Source: Chryseobacterium fluminis
GTDB lineage: Bacteria; Bacteroidota; Bacteroidia; Flavobacteriales; Weeksellaceae
DNA length: 64,000 nucleotides
Assembly (NCBI RefSeq): GCF_026314945.1
Contig: NZ_CP111121.1
Coordinates: forward strand, 4,774,001 to 4,838,000
Reading direction: 5' to 3'
The number at the start of each line of letters is the position of its first letter. The first letter of the stretch is position 1. Both the position numbers and the translations under genes were made by a program. Below, piece by piece: positions 31,407 through 35,970 of the stretch. The notes under the pieces were generated by a model, which worked only from the letters and a program-made list of their open reading frames with translations, searched no databases and had not been told where the DNA came from.

Positions 31407-31414
31407 TATATTTG
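31407..31414 (+). promoter_or_regulatory. -7 box of the precursor-peptide operon
   Basis: TATATTTG, 39 bases ahead of the precursor ATG, matches TAnnTTTG. A clear -33 element is not evident, which could mean activator dependence. Confidence 0.5.
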
Positions 31415-31453
31415 GTGAGATAAGTAAATTAATAACCCTTTAACTCATCTTTT

Positions 31454-31708
31454 ATGAAAAAGAAATTTAAAATCACGAGTAATCTTGAACAAAAAGAAAT
31501 TCTAAAAAAATCAATCCAGAACTCGGAAAATGAAAATGTAGATCTTTACAAATCCATTTTCGGAGGAATCAACAATTTAGGCCTTGTTCCCGGAACAGGA
31601 GGAGGTGGTGGAGTAATCATAGCGCCTCCGGGAGGAAGCTGTGATGTCGTAGCCATTTCAGGTGCATCAGCTGCTTATGACAGGCATGATACATTTTTAA
31701 GAGCTTAA
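31454..31708 (+). CDS. RiPP precursor peptide, radical-SAM modified (putative)
   Basis: 84 residues with no database-like identity I recognise; called a precursor from its shape and position. Residues 1-36 form a charged, helical leader rich in Lys/Glu/Asn. LYKSIFGG (31-38) could be a double-glycine cleavage site. A Gly-rich spacer (GTGGGGG, 47-53) and a single Cys63 follow. The C-terminus reads SAAYDRHDTFLRA, so Tyr75-Asp-Arg77 and Phe81-Leu-Arg83 have the aromatic-x-basic layout accepted by three-residue cyclophane-forming radical SAM enzymes; His78-Asp-Thr80 lies between. The enzyme gene follows after a terminator. Confidence 0.7.
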   Translation: MKKKFKITSNLEQKEILKKSIQNSENENVDLYKSIFGGINNLGLVPGTGGGGGVIIAPPGGSCDVVAISGASAAYDRHDTFLRA

Positions 31709-31729
31709 TTTACTGATTTTTAAAACTTT

Positions 31730-31770
31730 AGTTCTTCGCTGGTAAAATAGCGAAGAACTTTATTTATTTA
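31730..31770 (+). terminator. Terminator/attenuator after the precursor gene
   Basis: An 11-bp perfect stem (AGTTCTTCGCT) with an 8-base loop, then a T-rich run. It lies between precursor and maturase, the usual means of making precursor mRNA in excess over enzyme mRNA. Confidence 0.8.
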
Positions 31771-31777
31771 TAGAGAT

Positions 31778-33019
31778 ATGGTTACTTCTTTTGTTCTGAA
31801 GGTTGCAAGCAGATGCAACCTCAACTGTTCGTATTGTTACATGTATAATCTGGGAGATAAAACATATCTCAAACAACCCAAATTCATGTCGCTTGATACG
31901 ATGACAACGTTCGCAGAAAAACTGTCACGCTACAGTGATCAATATGGCCTGAAATCCTTCCAGATTGTTTTTCATGGCGGTGAGCCCTTATTATATCCCA
32001 AAGAATTTTATAGGGAAAGCATAAAAATATTCAGAGAAAAACTCAGCGATTCCTATTTTGATTTTGTGCTTCAGACCAATGGTGTAGGTCTGGATGAAGA
32101 ATGGTACCATCTGTTTAATGAATTAAGCATCCGGGTCGGTGTCAGCATAGACGGACCTAAAGAATATCACGATAAATACCGTGTTTTTCATAACGGGAAG
32201 GGATCTTACGATGAGGTTCGGACTGCCATACAGCTCGGTTTGGATAAAGGGATGCACGGCGTGTTATCCGTTGCCAACCTGAATATCAGCCCGAAGGAGC
32301 TGTACCAGGAATTTAAAGACCTCAATATTCTGAGTTTTAATCTTTTGCTTCCCGATGGGCATTTCGACAAACTGCCGGATGGTATCATCAGGGAAAAAGT
32401 TAATACCAGCGATTATACACCCTATGCCGATTGGCTGATCGAACTTTTTGCCATCTGGAAAAGTGATCCGGACCGGCCGAATATGAGGTTCTTCAAAACA
32501 TTAATTCAGCTTATCGCAGGTGAAGAAGTGGGAGATCAGGTGCTCGGACTGAAAAAGAATGGGGTGGCCATCCTTGAGACCAATGGGAATCTGGAAGTGG
32601 CAGATTCTATAAGAGCCTGTTATGAGGGGATTACAAGAAATGACATTAACATCCATACCCACGAGATCGACGCTGTACTGGAAGATCCATTGTTTGATAT
32701 ATACATCAATTCCCACCAGATGGTTAACGAAAAATGCCTTAACTGTCCCATTTATGACATATGTGGAGGTGGCTTTCTTCTGAACAGGTATTCGAACGAG
32801 AATGGGTTTGATAATCCTACCATCTACTGTCACGATATGATAAAACTGGTAAGCTATATCCAGAATGACCTGATAAACAGTCTTCCTGAAGAGGTTTGCG
32901 AAGAAATGGATCTTACCAGGGTTTCTTATCACGAAATTGTAGAAGAGCTTGAAAATACAAGAGCGGTTTCCGTTCAGAAAAATATTAAAGATAAACTATT
33001 AGCCTACAGTTTAGCATGA
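31778..33019 (+). CDS. Radical SAM/SPASM peptide maturase, FxsB-like
   Basis: 413 residues. The radical SAM cluster motif CNLNCSYC supplies Cys13, Cys17 and Cys20; FHGGEPLLY and VGVSIDGPKEYHD mark the SAM-binding barrel. The SPASM part has Cys281, then CLNCPIYDICGGG (Cys320, 323, 329) and Cys351 in NPTIYCHDMIKLV. The CGGG...RY...NP..YC ending is what I recall of FxsB-type maturases, which join an aromatic ring to the beta-carbon of the second residue after it. It probably installs such crosslinks at the C-terminus of the upstream peptide. The stop overlaps the next start (ATGA). Confidence 0.88.
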   Translation: MVTSFVLKVASRCNLNCSYCYMYNLGDKTYLKQPKFMSLDTMTTFAEKLSRYSDQYGLKSFQIVFHGGEPLLYPKEFYRESIKIFREKLSDSYFDFVLQTNGVGLDEEWYHLFNELSIRVGVSIDGPKEYHDKYRVFHNGKGSYDEVRTAIQLGLDKGMHGVLSVANLNISPKELYQEFKDLNILSFNLLLPDGHFDKLPDGIIREKVNTSDYTPYADWLIELFAIWKSDPDRPNMRFFKTLIQLIAGEEVGDQVLGLKKNGVAILETNGNLEVADSIRACYEGITRNDINIHTHEIDAVLEDPLFDIYINSHQMVNEKCLNCPIYDICGGGFLLNRYSNENGFDNPTIYCHDMIKLVSYIQNDLINSLPEEVCEEMDLTRVSYHEIVEELENTRAVSVQKNIKDKLLAYSLA

Positions 33020-33846
33020 GTTTAAAAAAAGGAATCAAAGTATATCCCTGCGGTATTCAGGACATTAAAGATCAGATTAGCATTAATTCGGGAGTAGGTC
33101 CTGTTACCAATTCCAATTCTGAAATCGAATATTACAGCAATGCCTATCTGCCTACGATGGATTGGCGTGGTCTTACGGATTCGGAATACAGAAAAATTTC
33201 TACGGCAGATGCCGGCAGTAAAATATTTAACACACTGGGCGTGGGTGCTATTCCGGAACAGTTGAAGGATCTATTTGAAAAATTAAATCTCAATGACTGT
33301 GAATCTCTTTTTGACGTCCCAAAGAAATTTCAGGAAAATGAAACACTCACAAAACAGATTAATGAATTAACCAATGTTTTTCTGGATGAGAAATCTTTAC
33401 AGAGAAATTATAAGTTTCACCGCATCGCCAGATCTCTCCCCGATATGCAGAGTACGACCTTCCATCATTTGGGTCAGAACAAATTTAAATATACAGGACT
33501 GCATATTGATAAAAGCAGCTTTTTCACTCCTCATACTGCTTATAAGTCGGGGAACAGAATTTCAATCAATATAAGCACGGAATCACGCTATCTGTATTTT
33601 ATTAATTTAACACTACGGCAGATCTATGGGGAAGTGCAGAAAAAATATGCGGAGAAAATAACGTCTGACAATATTGTTGAACAGTTTTTTAATCATTATC
33701 CCGGATATCCCGTGCTGAAGCTGGAAATAAAACCTTACCAATACTATATTGCTCCTACGGACAATTTCATCCATGACGGTACAACGCTCGGGAATAAAGG
33801 CTTTGACGTCACCATGGTCTATGTCGGAGTATTTGATAAATACTGA
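33016..33846 (+). CDS. Putative 2-oxoglutarate/Fe(II) oxygenase, RiPP operon copy 1
   Basis: 276 residues of a family I cannot name. It is paralogous to the next gene: both share FGNRI/SGNRI, ESRYL, a Pro-x-Leu-Lys stretch and YIAPTDN...HDG-TLG near the end. His163-x-Asp165 (GLHIDKS) and His253 (FIHDGTTLG) are kept in both copies in the order of the HxD...H iron triad of 2-oxoglutarate oxygenases. The usual Arg about ten residues after the last His is absent, so the co-substrate site is unclear. It starts inside the maturase stop codon, so it is translationally coupled. A hydroxylation of the crosslinked peptide is an inference from context. Confidence 0.6.
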   Translation: MSLKKGIKVYPCGIQDIKDQISINSGVGPVTNSNSEIEYYSNAYLPTMDWRGLTDSEYRKISTADAGSKIFNTLGVGAIPEQLKDLFEKLNLNDCESLFDVPKKFQENETLTKQINELTNVFLDEKSLQRNYKFHRIARSLPDMQSTTFHHLGQNKFKYTGLHIDKSSFFTPHTAYKSGNRISINISTESRYLYFINLTLRQIYGEVQKKYAEKITSDNIVEQFFNHYPGYPVLKLEIKPYQYYIAPTDNFIHDGTTLGNKGFDVTMVYVGVFDKY

Positions 33847-33851
33847 ATCCC

Positions 33852-34727
33852 ATGAAAAAACTAAAACCAGGAATTAAAATATACTCAGATCACAACGGCG
33901 GAACCCTGCAGATTAATTCAGGAGTTATTCATCATAGCCAGCAGGAGCCCAACGAATTTATTTTCAGAGGTGAAAGGTTTCTGCAGCAGTATGAACCCGA
34001 AGCCCATCTGCCCAAACGCGACTGGCGTACACCCGATCCGCAAGAATATAAAATCATTAAGGGTGATCATAAGAACAAAAAAGACTACAATTCCGTATTT
34101 ACAGGAGAACTGCCTGAAAATATCCGTCGTCTTTTTACTGAACTGGATCTTGGGACAGCAACTTCCGAAGAAGAAGTCTTTGGTAAATTCAGACAGAATA
34201 AAGAACTCGTAGACCAGATCAATATCCATATCAATGAGTTTTTGCAGCAGATTTCTCTTGCCCCGTTCCGGTTTATGAGTCTTGCCACCAACTATGCCAA
34301 CAGCGAAATCGTATCCCTGAACAGAAGAACACTGTCCGAAGGACAATCTATCGCTGATCTTCAATTTATAGGAGTTCATAAGGACAGCTCAAAAAATATG
34401 ACCCTGCATACCGCTCATAGATTCGGAAACAGAATAACATTTAATTTAGGAAAGGAGTCGCGCTATTTACTCGTAACGAATCTCTCGATGCGGCAGGCAT
34501 ATCATATGATTAAAAGAGAAATAGACCTGAAAGAAAATGACGTAAATAATAAAAACATTACTTCGTATTTTATGAAGCTGTTTCCGGATTATCCTATGCT
34601 GAAAATAGAGCATAAACCTCATCATTTTTATATTGCGCCTACCGATAACTGTTTTCATGACGGGTCTACGCTTGGAAGTACATCCCTGGATATCGTCATG
34701 ATCTATCTCGGTAAGTTTTTAATTTAA
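33852..34727 (+). CDS. Putative 2-oxoglutarate/Fe(II) oxygenase, RiPP operon copy 2
   Basis: 291 residues, a clear paralogue of the gene ending five bases upstream, diverged but with the same landmarks: RDWRTPDPQEYK matching MDWRGLTDSEYR near residue 55, HKD (His176, Asp178), FGNRITFNLGKESRYLL, and CFHDGSTLG (His269). The duplicate pair suggests either two target residues or a heteromeric enzyme. No signal peptide, so it acts in the cytoplasm before export. As for copy 1, the fold call rests on the HxD...H pattern only. Confidence 0.6.
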   Translation: MKKLKPGIKIYSDHNGGTLQINSGVIHHSQQEPNEFIFRGERFLQQYEPEAHLPKRDWRTPDPQEYKIIKGDHKNKKDYNSVFTGELPENIRRLFTELDLGTATSEEEVFGKFRQNKELVDQINIHINEFLQQISLAPFRFMSLATNYANSEIVSLNRRTLSEGQSIADLQFIGVHKDSSKNMTLHTAHRFGNRITFNLGKESRYLLVTNLSMRQAYHMIKREIDLKENDVNNKNITSYFMKLFPDYPMLKIEHKPHHFYIAPTDNCFHDGSTLGSTSLDIVMIYLGKFLI

Positions 34728-34742
34728 TCTACTTTTTTTCAC

Positions 34743-35900
34743 ATGAAATATACTTTAGCTTTTTTACTCTTAACGATTTCGTACCTTCAGATTATGGCTC
34801 AGAAAAAACTTCCTGTCGTAAAAGCTAATTCATCCAAAGCCATCATTCTGGAAGAAGATACCGGGCTGAAAACCGACTGGAATATCGATCCTTCTGTAAA
34901 ACCAGATGTATACACCGTCACCAAAATAAGCAAAGGCTCCAGAACGGTAAAGATAAAAACAGATATCGACTCCATCAGAATTACGGTGAAACAAGGCGAG
35001 AAAAAAGATTTTATCATTCTTCTTAAAGATAAAGATTCATGCCTTACACGAATCGAAAGCGCCGTTCCCAAAAATTTCAGTACGGTACGTCCTGCTTTTC
35101 ACGACAGCATTCGTCTCGGAATCAATGAGCAGAATACCATGTTTGTAAAAACGCTGCTCAATAAAACAGATTCTCTGGTTCTTAATTTTGATACCGGAAG
35201 CAATAACCTTTCCCTGACCCGGGAAACGCTCAAAGATAAAATCAAAGAACAGCTCAAAGGAAGAGTCAATGTCCTGTCTATCGGAAACAAAAAATACGAT
35301 GGCTTCAGAATCTATCAGGTTGAGCTATCGGGACATGGCACCGATGGGAGATTTGGCTGGGACCTGTTTGACGGAATGGTAGTAGAACTGAATTATGACA
35401 AAGGAATAATGGTGGTACATTCTGAACTTCCCGAATTTGTAAAAAAAGATAAGGCATATCAGCCGTTGGATATCATCTATTTTGATCAACTGTTCTTCGT
35501 TGAAACAACCATAAAACAGGGGAGAAAAACGCTGAAAGACTGGTTTCTGTTCGATACAGGATACCAGAGAACCGTAATGCTGGATGGTCCTCTGCTGAAG
35601 GAGCAGCAATTTCCGGCCGATCAGATGAAAATAATAAAAAAAGTAGTGATGAAGGGAGGACAGGGGAATGAAATCCCCGTTATCACAGCGAATCTGGAAT
35701 CCCTGAGCCTCGGAAAATATCATCTTAAAAACATTCCTTCCCAGGTTCTTTCTGAAAGCAGACCGGTAAAAGATAAAAAAATGAATATCCTGGGCAACGA
35801 AATTTTGAAGAGATTTAATATCTTTCTTGATTTTCAGCATAATGTCATTTATCTGAAGCCCAATAAACTCTTTAATGATGCCTATATTGAAAAGCAGTAA
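34743..35900 (+). CDS. Secreted aspartic protease-like protein with two DTG motifs
   Basis: 385 residues with a signal peptide ending near IMAQ. Two repeated lobes carry the catalytic motif of clan AA proteases: FDTGS (Asp150) and FDTGY (Asp271), each followed by a hydrophobic-Gly element and an ending such as ILGNEILKRFNIFLDF (about 348-363), as in retropepsin-like or pepsin-like enzymes. The first ~120 residues are a beta-rich pro-region or binding domain. It lies 15 bases after oxygenase copy 2 and is the last gene before a terminator. I infer it trims the leader of the modified peptide outside the cytoplasm; general protein turnover is the alternative. Confidence 0.75.
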   Translation: MKYTLAFLLLTISYLQIMAQKKLPVVKANSSKAIILEEDTGLKTDWNIDPSVKPDVYTVTKISKGSRTVKIKTDIDSIRITVKQGEKKDFIILLKDKDSCLTRIESAVPKNFSTVRPAFHDSIRLGINEQNTMFVKTLLNKTDSLVLNFDTGSNNLSLTRETLKDKIKEQLKGRVNVLSIGNKKYDGFRIYQVELSGHGTDGRFGWDLFDGMVVELNYDKGIMVVHSELPEFVKKDKAYQPLDIIYFDQLFFVETTIKQGRKTLKDWFLFDTGYQRTVMLDGPLLKEQQFPADQMKIIKKVVMKGGQGNEIPVITANLESLSLGKYHLKNIPSQVLSESRPVKDKKMNILGNEILKRFNIFLDFQHNVIYLKPNKLFNDAYIEKQ

Positions 35901-35934
35901 AGAAGCGGTAAAATAAATATTCCTTAACTTTATC

Positions 35935-35970
35935 ATCCTTAAAGCCTTCGTACCTTTAAGGATTTTTTTA
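35935..35970 (+). terminator. End-of-operon terminator after the protease gene
   Basis: ATCCTTAAAG and its perfect complement enclose a 9-base loop, followed by seven T residues. It separates the peptide operon from the transporter gene. Confidence 0.85.

Follow-up and report, generated by a model that had tools for sequence, protein, structure and literature searches.

The window analysed here is a 64,000-nucleotide stretch of the Chryseobacterium fluminis genome (G000; assembly GCF_026314945.1, 5.07 Mb in two contigs), namely positions 4,774,001-4,838,000 of contig NZ_CP111121.1. It carries a compact cassette comprising a short precursor peptide gene, a gene for a freestanding radical S-adenosylmethionine (SAM)/SPASM enzyme (rSAM) and two paralogous genes, ox1 and ox2, which we propose to direct the synthesis of a ribosomally synthesized and post-translationally modified peptide (RiPP). 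The features of the locus, in window coordinates, are the following:

31407..31414, + strand: TAnnTTTG-type motif TATATTTG, 47 bases 5' of the precursor start
31454..31708, + strand: precursor peptide of 84 aa, with a leader ending in DLYKSIFGG, a Gly-rich linker, a single Cys and the core end AAYDRHDTFLRA
31730..31759, + strand: hairpin of 12 pairs with a T-rich tail in the precursor/rSAM spacer, a putative attenuator or partial terminator
31778..33019, + strand: freestanding rSAM/SPASM peptide maturase of 413 aa, on the FxsB/ChlB/YhhB side according to NCBIfam matches, alignment with ChlB and a tree
33016..33846, + strand: ox1, a predicted Fe(II)/alpha-ketoglutarate oxygenase of 276 aa, in which HxD...H corresponds to H163, D165 and H253
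33852..34727, + strand: ox2, a paralogous predicted Fe(II)/alpha-ketoglutarate oxygenase of 291 aa, related to MicC (PDB 9vkm, E 2e-17) and forming its own subfamily in the oxygenase tree
34743..35900, + strand: secreted aspartic protease, apparently a starch-locus resident according to Pfam and neighbourhood comparison, not counted in the cassette
about 35935-35970: downstream terminator, recognised by eye and absent from the hairpin scan list

The system consists of four genes (precursor, rSAM, ox1 and ox2), and not of five as proposed in a previous sequence-only reading of this DNA, which had included the protease. The start of ox1 overlaps the stop of the rSAM gene (ATGA) and a gap of five bases separates ox1 from ox2; these junctions, together with the open reading frames, motifs and terminators described in that reading, were all found where it had placed them. 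The precursor, ox1 and ox2 had no match among Pfam or NCBIfam models.

Using an oxygenase alignment to scan GTDB genomes, we obtained 31 named loci. The order precursor-rSAM-ox1-ox2 is found in 28 of them, distributed over nine Bacteroidota genera (Chryseobacterium, Chitinophaga, Longitalea, Niastella, Mucilaginibacter, Aquimarina, Tenacibaculum, Kordia and Flavobacterium), and such a recurrence indicates that the arrangement is not due to chance. Among the three exceptions, L046 starts at ox1 at a contig end, while L061 (Chryseobacterium) and L062 (Paraflavitalea), only distantly related, have an rSAM and one oxygenase. A single ox2 copy is present in the 14 complete Chryseobacterium loci vs two (five loci) or three (nine loci) in the 14 other complete loci; a single core, 29-50 residues long, can be accompanied by as many as four oxygenase genes, and inspection by eye revealed no clear relation between ox2 copy number and core features. 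Across 173 Chryseobacterium genomes, ox1 or a relative occurs in 27 and the oxygenase pair in 24, all 24 of which also encode the precursor and an rSAM orthologue (interrupted by a stop in G051). The remaining 149 genomes contain no rSAM above 400 bits; 16 of them encode a relative at 33-43% identity, accompanied by one oxygenase in three cases (G081, G156 and G171). Co-occurrence in related genomes, the check that had been suggested earlier, is thus borne out for the precursor, rSAM, ox1 and ox2, by locus as well as by genome.

In Chryseobacterium sp. JUb7, the five genes are 87-98% identical to those of the window. The family is rare, being detected in 3 of 395 sampled Bacteroidota genomes (the window's own, one further Chryseobacterium and G312) when at most six candidates were scored per genome. 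A weak precursor match in G143 (E 0.007) was dropped, this genome being absent from both the oxygenase and the rSAM lists. The G051 cassette (L089) is decaying, its rSAM frame and the adjoining protease each being stop-interrupted. Two precursor genes are found at one cassette in Niastella caeni (L049, in tandem) and in Mucilaginibacter flavus (L056, the second ~3 kb upstream), and a precursor of the same type (P0231), known from the protein alone, exists in Epilithonimonas hominis.

The rSAM displays the motif CNLNCSYC (CxxxCxxC) and CLNCPIYDICGGG...YC, the latter providing C-terminal cysteines of the SPASM type; no Pfam SPASM model matched, and the SPASM naming derives from the NCBIfam matches and the ChlB alignment. 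The best NCBIfam scores were obtained with YhhB (NF041707, 346.7 bits for a cut-off of 445) and FxsB (TIGR04269, 312.4 bits for a cut-off of 370), followed at a distance by XyeB (196.1 bits), the sulfatase maturase (151.2 bits) and GrrM (125.3 bits). We take the triceptide maturases XncB, OscB and MscB to represent the XyeB, GrrM/OscB and FxsB families, respectively. The best solved relative is the rSAM domain of ChlB (PDB 9gm3, E 2.5e-55). A tree of 34 proteins, rooted at its midpoint and built without XyeB, united 12 rSAMs of oxygenase-pair cassettes in one group (100/99), itself included in a wider group of 28 rows (89/90) with the Chryseobacterium sister enzymes, one FxsB, ChlB and two YhhB. 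The anSME, GrrM, PeaB, CbpB and lachnocin maturases fell outside this wider group. Judged by sequence, the rSAM is nearest to cyclophane makers and does not group with anSME, in agreement with the earlier view of an FxsB-like enzyme.

Both ox1 (E 9.4e-24) and ox2 (E 2e-17) are homologous to MicC (PDB 9vkm), with the metal triad aligned. The HxD...H triad is present in all 113 rows of the oxygenase alignment (three L093 rows repeating L055), where H163, D165, H253 and R191 are all kept. By homology, fold and metal triad, ox1 and ox2 are HxD...H-type Fe(II)/alpha-ketoglutarate oxygenases of two subfamilies, and what had been called oxygenase-like from the motif can now be named with more precision. 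A literature search returned no paper on MicC; the structure is not among the fold-search matches listed for ox1 and ox2 (entries to April 2026), which suggests, without proving it, a later release. Two other loci, L086 and L087 (in G081 and G171), combine an rSAM with a divergent oxygenase that is 34% identical to ox1 and in which APTEY replaces APTDN; their neighbours comprise a GT9-family glycosyltransferase, a C39 transporter and a barrel, and they possibly make a glycosylated relative without Cys.

The precursors share a C-terminus of the form Y-[DNS]-[KR]...D...F-L-[RQKL], in which the loops differ in length, in 31 cases out of 31. The aromatic-x-Arg triplets of the sequence-only reading were thus rightly located and too narrowly defined: aromatic-x-x is kept throughout, while the third residue is not restricted to Arg, the two triplets being Y-[DNS]-[KR] and F-L-[R/Q/K/L]. 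A profile of 14 precursors, compared with a collection of 5.8 billion proteins, gave 123 matches, and 119 of the 120 matches listed fitted the leader pattern and were retained as a wide set. The loose motif aromatic-x-x...D...F-L fits 108 of these 119 cores; among the others, some vary at the Phe or the Leu. The leader ends with GG in 29 of the 31 precursors, the two others having GK and AG.

The main unforeseen result, overlooked by the earlier note, is that each core contains exactly one Cys, in 31/31 named loci and in 119/119 members of the wide set. A distance between Cys and Tyr in steps of three (12, 15 or 18 residues in 29/31) was considered and abandoned, since the wide set also contains 14 (16 times), 19, 16, 20 and 23. 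At the scale of lineages, which were grouped by hand, Cys is found in three of four with an oxygenase vs zero or one of ten sister lineages without it (Fisher p 0.011 or 0.041, depending on whether the L102 Cys, located near the core start, is left out or counted).

Precursors of sister systems are rich in comparable triplets. Over the C-terminal 35 residues of all 19 sister precursors, a polar residue (N/Q/D/E/K/R/H) occupies position +2 of 66 of 74 aromatics vs 25.9 in shuffles, a value reached by none of 10000; with a single precursor per group, the count is 37/40 vs 13.8. An earlier count on 12 hand-cut sister precursors gave 41/44 vs 15.9, and 13 representatives of the window-type precursors, which are related sequences, gave 24/28 vs 6.9. 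The sister rSAM systems L076, L077, L079 and L103 (Chryseobacterium G072, G083, G060 and G114) lack oxygenases and have WSN/WRN-repeat precursors (EEWSNNWSNLGWSNAWRNG) with a triceptide-like motif, the next gene being SRP-GTPase-like by reading. At L083 (Chryseobacterium G061), the precursor contains a run of Y-x-Q/E/R triplets (GYAQSYSQSYTEHYGQSYSRQ) and lies near genes that cluster with a C39 transporter and an outer-membrane barrel. Finally, L061 and L088 encode one oxygenase and a Peptidase_S9-like protein alongside the rSAM (Pfam search on L088 only), and their precursors display one Cys and YADSIYVK.

Taken together, these observations lead us to interpret the cassette, with a probability of roughly two in three, as a RiPP system in which the rSAM makes triceptide-type cyclophanes and ox1 and ox2 subsequently oxidise the same core, before export guided by a GG leader. 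The rSAM would act on the leader-borne core and, as YhhB does, join the Tyr ring to the beta-carbon of the Lys or Arg located two residues further on (Y-D-R). A second link, between the Phe ring and the third residue of F-L-R, is likely and would result in two C-terminal three-residue cyclophanes. Oxidation of the same core by ox1 and ox2 would follow, our best single guess being that the central Asp/Asn of the Tyr cyclophane is beta-hydroxylated, as are further sites by the ox2 copies. A C39 peptidase-transporter, which fits because GG ends the leader, would then cut after GG and export the peptide; the window genome encodes four unlinked candidates of this type (41-46% identity). Our default guess is that the product is secreted and has an antibacterial or interference function. 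Of the original proposal of a cyclophane peptide further oxidised and then trimmed, the cyclophane and oxygenase components are strengthened by the co-occurrence, the triplets, the tree and the identity of the oxygenases, the protease falls away, and ox1/ox2 may carry out either hydroxylation or, as the conserved Cys hints, a Cys cross-linking reaction.

Several observations weigh against this interpretation. The rSAM reaches the curated cut-off of neither the YhhB nor the FxsB model, and GrrM, itself a cyclophane maker, lies outside the wider tree group, on a long branch. Leu occupies the third position of the second triplet in 6/31 precursors (13/108 in the wide set), the Asp preceding x-F-L is missing from 8/119 wide-set cores, and one core has Y-A-S. 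No transporter is linked to any Chryseobacterium cassette, and the mere presence of C39 was rejected as an association test, 169 of 173 Chryseobacterium genomes having a C39 domain, so that it carries no weight. A scheme limited to cyclophanes and hydroxylation leaves the conserved Cys without a role. Furthermore, the precursors counted were found via the window precursor or the 14-precursor profile, which favours conserved features, and the profile itself carried the Cys.

The Cys is central to a possible, though rather doubtful, alternative in which ox1 and/or ox2 would link its thiol to Tyr or to another core residue once the cyclophane is formed, thereby closing a second macrocycle, hydroxylation being minor or absent. 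The invariance of the single Cys and its tendency to accompany the oxygenase across lineages are in favour of this possibility, and a possible precedent is an alpha-ketoglutarate enzyme reported to form a Cys-Tyr cross-link in a RiPP (Xia 2025, as cited in PMC12636437). The correlation is imperfect, since the divergent oxygenase of L086/L087 accompanies a precursor without Cys and L102 has a Cys without any oxygenase; it also relies on few lineages and on the Cys-bearing search profile. Moreover, the Cys-Tyr spacing ranges from 12 to 23, and a lone Cys could equally serve in a disulfide dimer. If such a cross-link were true, an rSAM and two to four oxygenases would build a polycyclic stapled peptide, and HxD...H oxygenases would have a new bond-forming role in a class present in at least nine Bacteroidota genera. 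The same conserved Cys might instead designate the rSAM as a thioether former of the sacti- or ranthipeptide type, the aromatic triplets being reduced to recognition elements. We consider this improbable: the tree groups the rSAM with FxsB, ChlB and YhhB, apart from the lachnocin maturase and others (the branches are long, very long for lachnocin, and few thioether-forming enzymes were included), and the sister systems mostly lack a core Cys while having many aromatic-x-polar repeats such as WSN. The multiplication of paralogues, up to four per cassette, could also be understood if ox1 and ox2, their site being degenerate, bound the leader or acted as scaffolds instead of working as enzymes on the core; the conservation of H163, D165, H253 and R191 in every aligned row makes this hardly credible.

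We likewise judge it unlikely that the secreted aspartic protease is a fifth component of the system, one that would trim the peptide extracytoplasmically. The protein has a signal-like N-terminus, two DTG motifs and a match to Pfam Asp_protease_2 (27.1 bits for a cut-off of 24.3), and its gene lies directly 3' of ox2 in 22 of the 24 Chryseobacterium genomes; a relative at 37% identity is also found ~1 kb upstream of the Aquimarina cassette (L051), on the other strand. The two remaining Chryseobacterium genomes, G092 and G158 (C. rhizosphaerae and strain Bi04), have the cassette elsewhere, with no protease beside it. In G099, G151, G132 and G171, conversely, a GH97 gene is followed 80-89 bases on by the protease (529-538 bits) without any cassette. 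Outside Chryseobacterium, ox2 is not directly followed by the protease gene at any of the 14 complete loci. In G016 and G100, stops break the protease frame while the cassette is whole. The idea of a dedicated trimming enzyme has therefore to be given up; the protease looks like a resident of the surrounding starch locus, a long-standing neighbour that persists without the cassette, whether the latter was inserted or lost.

This starch-utilisation locus (window 23001-44000) surrounds the cassette, which stands beside the GH97 gene in 22 of the 24 Chryseobacterium genomes. It encodes SusD, GH97, an SBF-like transporter and an AspA-like protein, all assigned with Pfam, as well as a SusC-like protein and an alpha-amylase assigned by reading or from neighbour clusters. 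The surroundings differ outside Chryseobacterium: an outer-membrane barrel (OMP_b-brl_3) is encoded just 5' of the cassette in 14/14 loci (L051 retains a 95-aa fragment). In 7/14, as well as at L046, a peptidase C39 ABC transporter is encoded within ~8 kb, the Pfam searches on these barrel and C39 neighbours having been run on the L048 copies.

The hairpin between the precursor and rSAM genes is genuine. Its spacer folds below all 100 mononucleotide shuffles in 25 of the 28 complete named relatives, two others lying below 98 or 99 of 100 and L050 below 91, which is not convincing. Among 12 Chryseobacterium spacers, all 132 cells are paired and 4 of the 11 pairs show double changes. The hairpin would keep the amounts of enzymes below that of the precursor. 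Upstream, TATATTTG is located at -37 to -48 of the precursor in the window and in 12 of the 14 Chryseobacterium relatives scanned, and is absent from L043, L044 and the eight non-Chryseobacterium loci scanned (22 of the 28 complete loci were covered). We take TAnnTTTG to be the Bacteroidota-type -7 promoter motif; as it also occurs in all four cassette-free gaps, it proves nothing regarding a promoter of the cassette's own.

We found no description of this gene set among the open-access papers listed by our literature searches, which is weak evidence of novelty. The triceptide maturases XncB, OscB and MscB are likewise rSAM/SPASM enzymes forming aromatic-x-x cyclophanes, and the passages of PMC11002830 on these systems mention no paired HxD oxygenases; the XyeB and GrrM models, in addition, score far lower than YhhB. 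TvgB and TvgC of Halomonas also bring together an rSAM and an iron/alpha-ketoglutarate enzyme in one RiPP cluster, but TvgB forms cyclopropyl groups on Val (PMC11002830), and TvgC belongs to family IPR018724. MicC, an alpha-ketoglutarate-dependent non-heme iron oxygenase, is distant, its relatives P0122 and P0123 being 28 and 26% identical to ox1; its deposition means that other groups may already be working on this oxygenase family.

The closest parallels are YhhA/YhhB and ChlB. YhhB is the top NCBIfam model of the rSAM, and the precursors share S-x-Y-D-R/S-Y-D-R: the two YhhA peptides compared, substrates of YhhB, end in S-Y-D-R-M-H-H-R-H-N-R-S (SYDRMHHRHNRS), and the Y-D-R of the window is thus the same motif. 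YhhB is reported to join C3 of Tyr to the beta-carbon of Arg (PMC11002830). The two YhhB proteins compared are however 716 and 711 aa long, with HExxH near residue 600, a part absent from the 413-aa rSAM, which stands alone; the window precursor differs from YhhA by its lack of His triplets and its single Cys, and the two HxD oxygenases are encoded by separate genes. With its single Cys and YDR, this precursor is small and could readily serve as substrate in an E. coli reconstitution. In ChlB-type enzymes, the domain fused to the rSAM carries out beta-hydroxylation at Asp and His of a preformed cyclophane, so that cyclophane formation precedes alpha-ketoglutarate-dependent oxidation as proposed here, whereas the oxygenase part is of the HExxH type with a zincin-like fold (PMC12636437) instead of HxD...H. 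With the same chemical plan and an unrelated oxygenase fold, one type of oxygenase would replace the other, and ox1 and ox2 would be non-homologous stand-ins for the alpha-ketoglutarate domain of HExxH type that YhhB and ChlB contain as a fusion. We thus take the cassette to be a triceptide-type RiPP variant with separate HxD...H oxygenases in place of the fused HExxH oxygenase, pairing a cyclophane-type rSAM with an alpha-ketoglutarate oxygenase family that has no Pfam or NCBIfam model.

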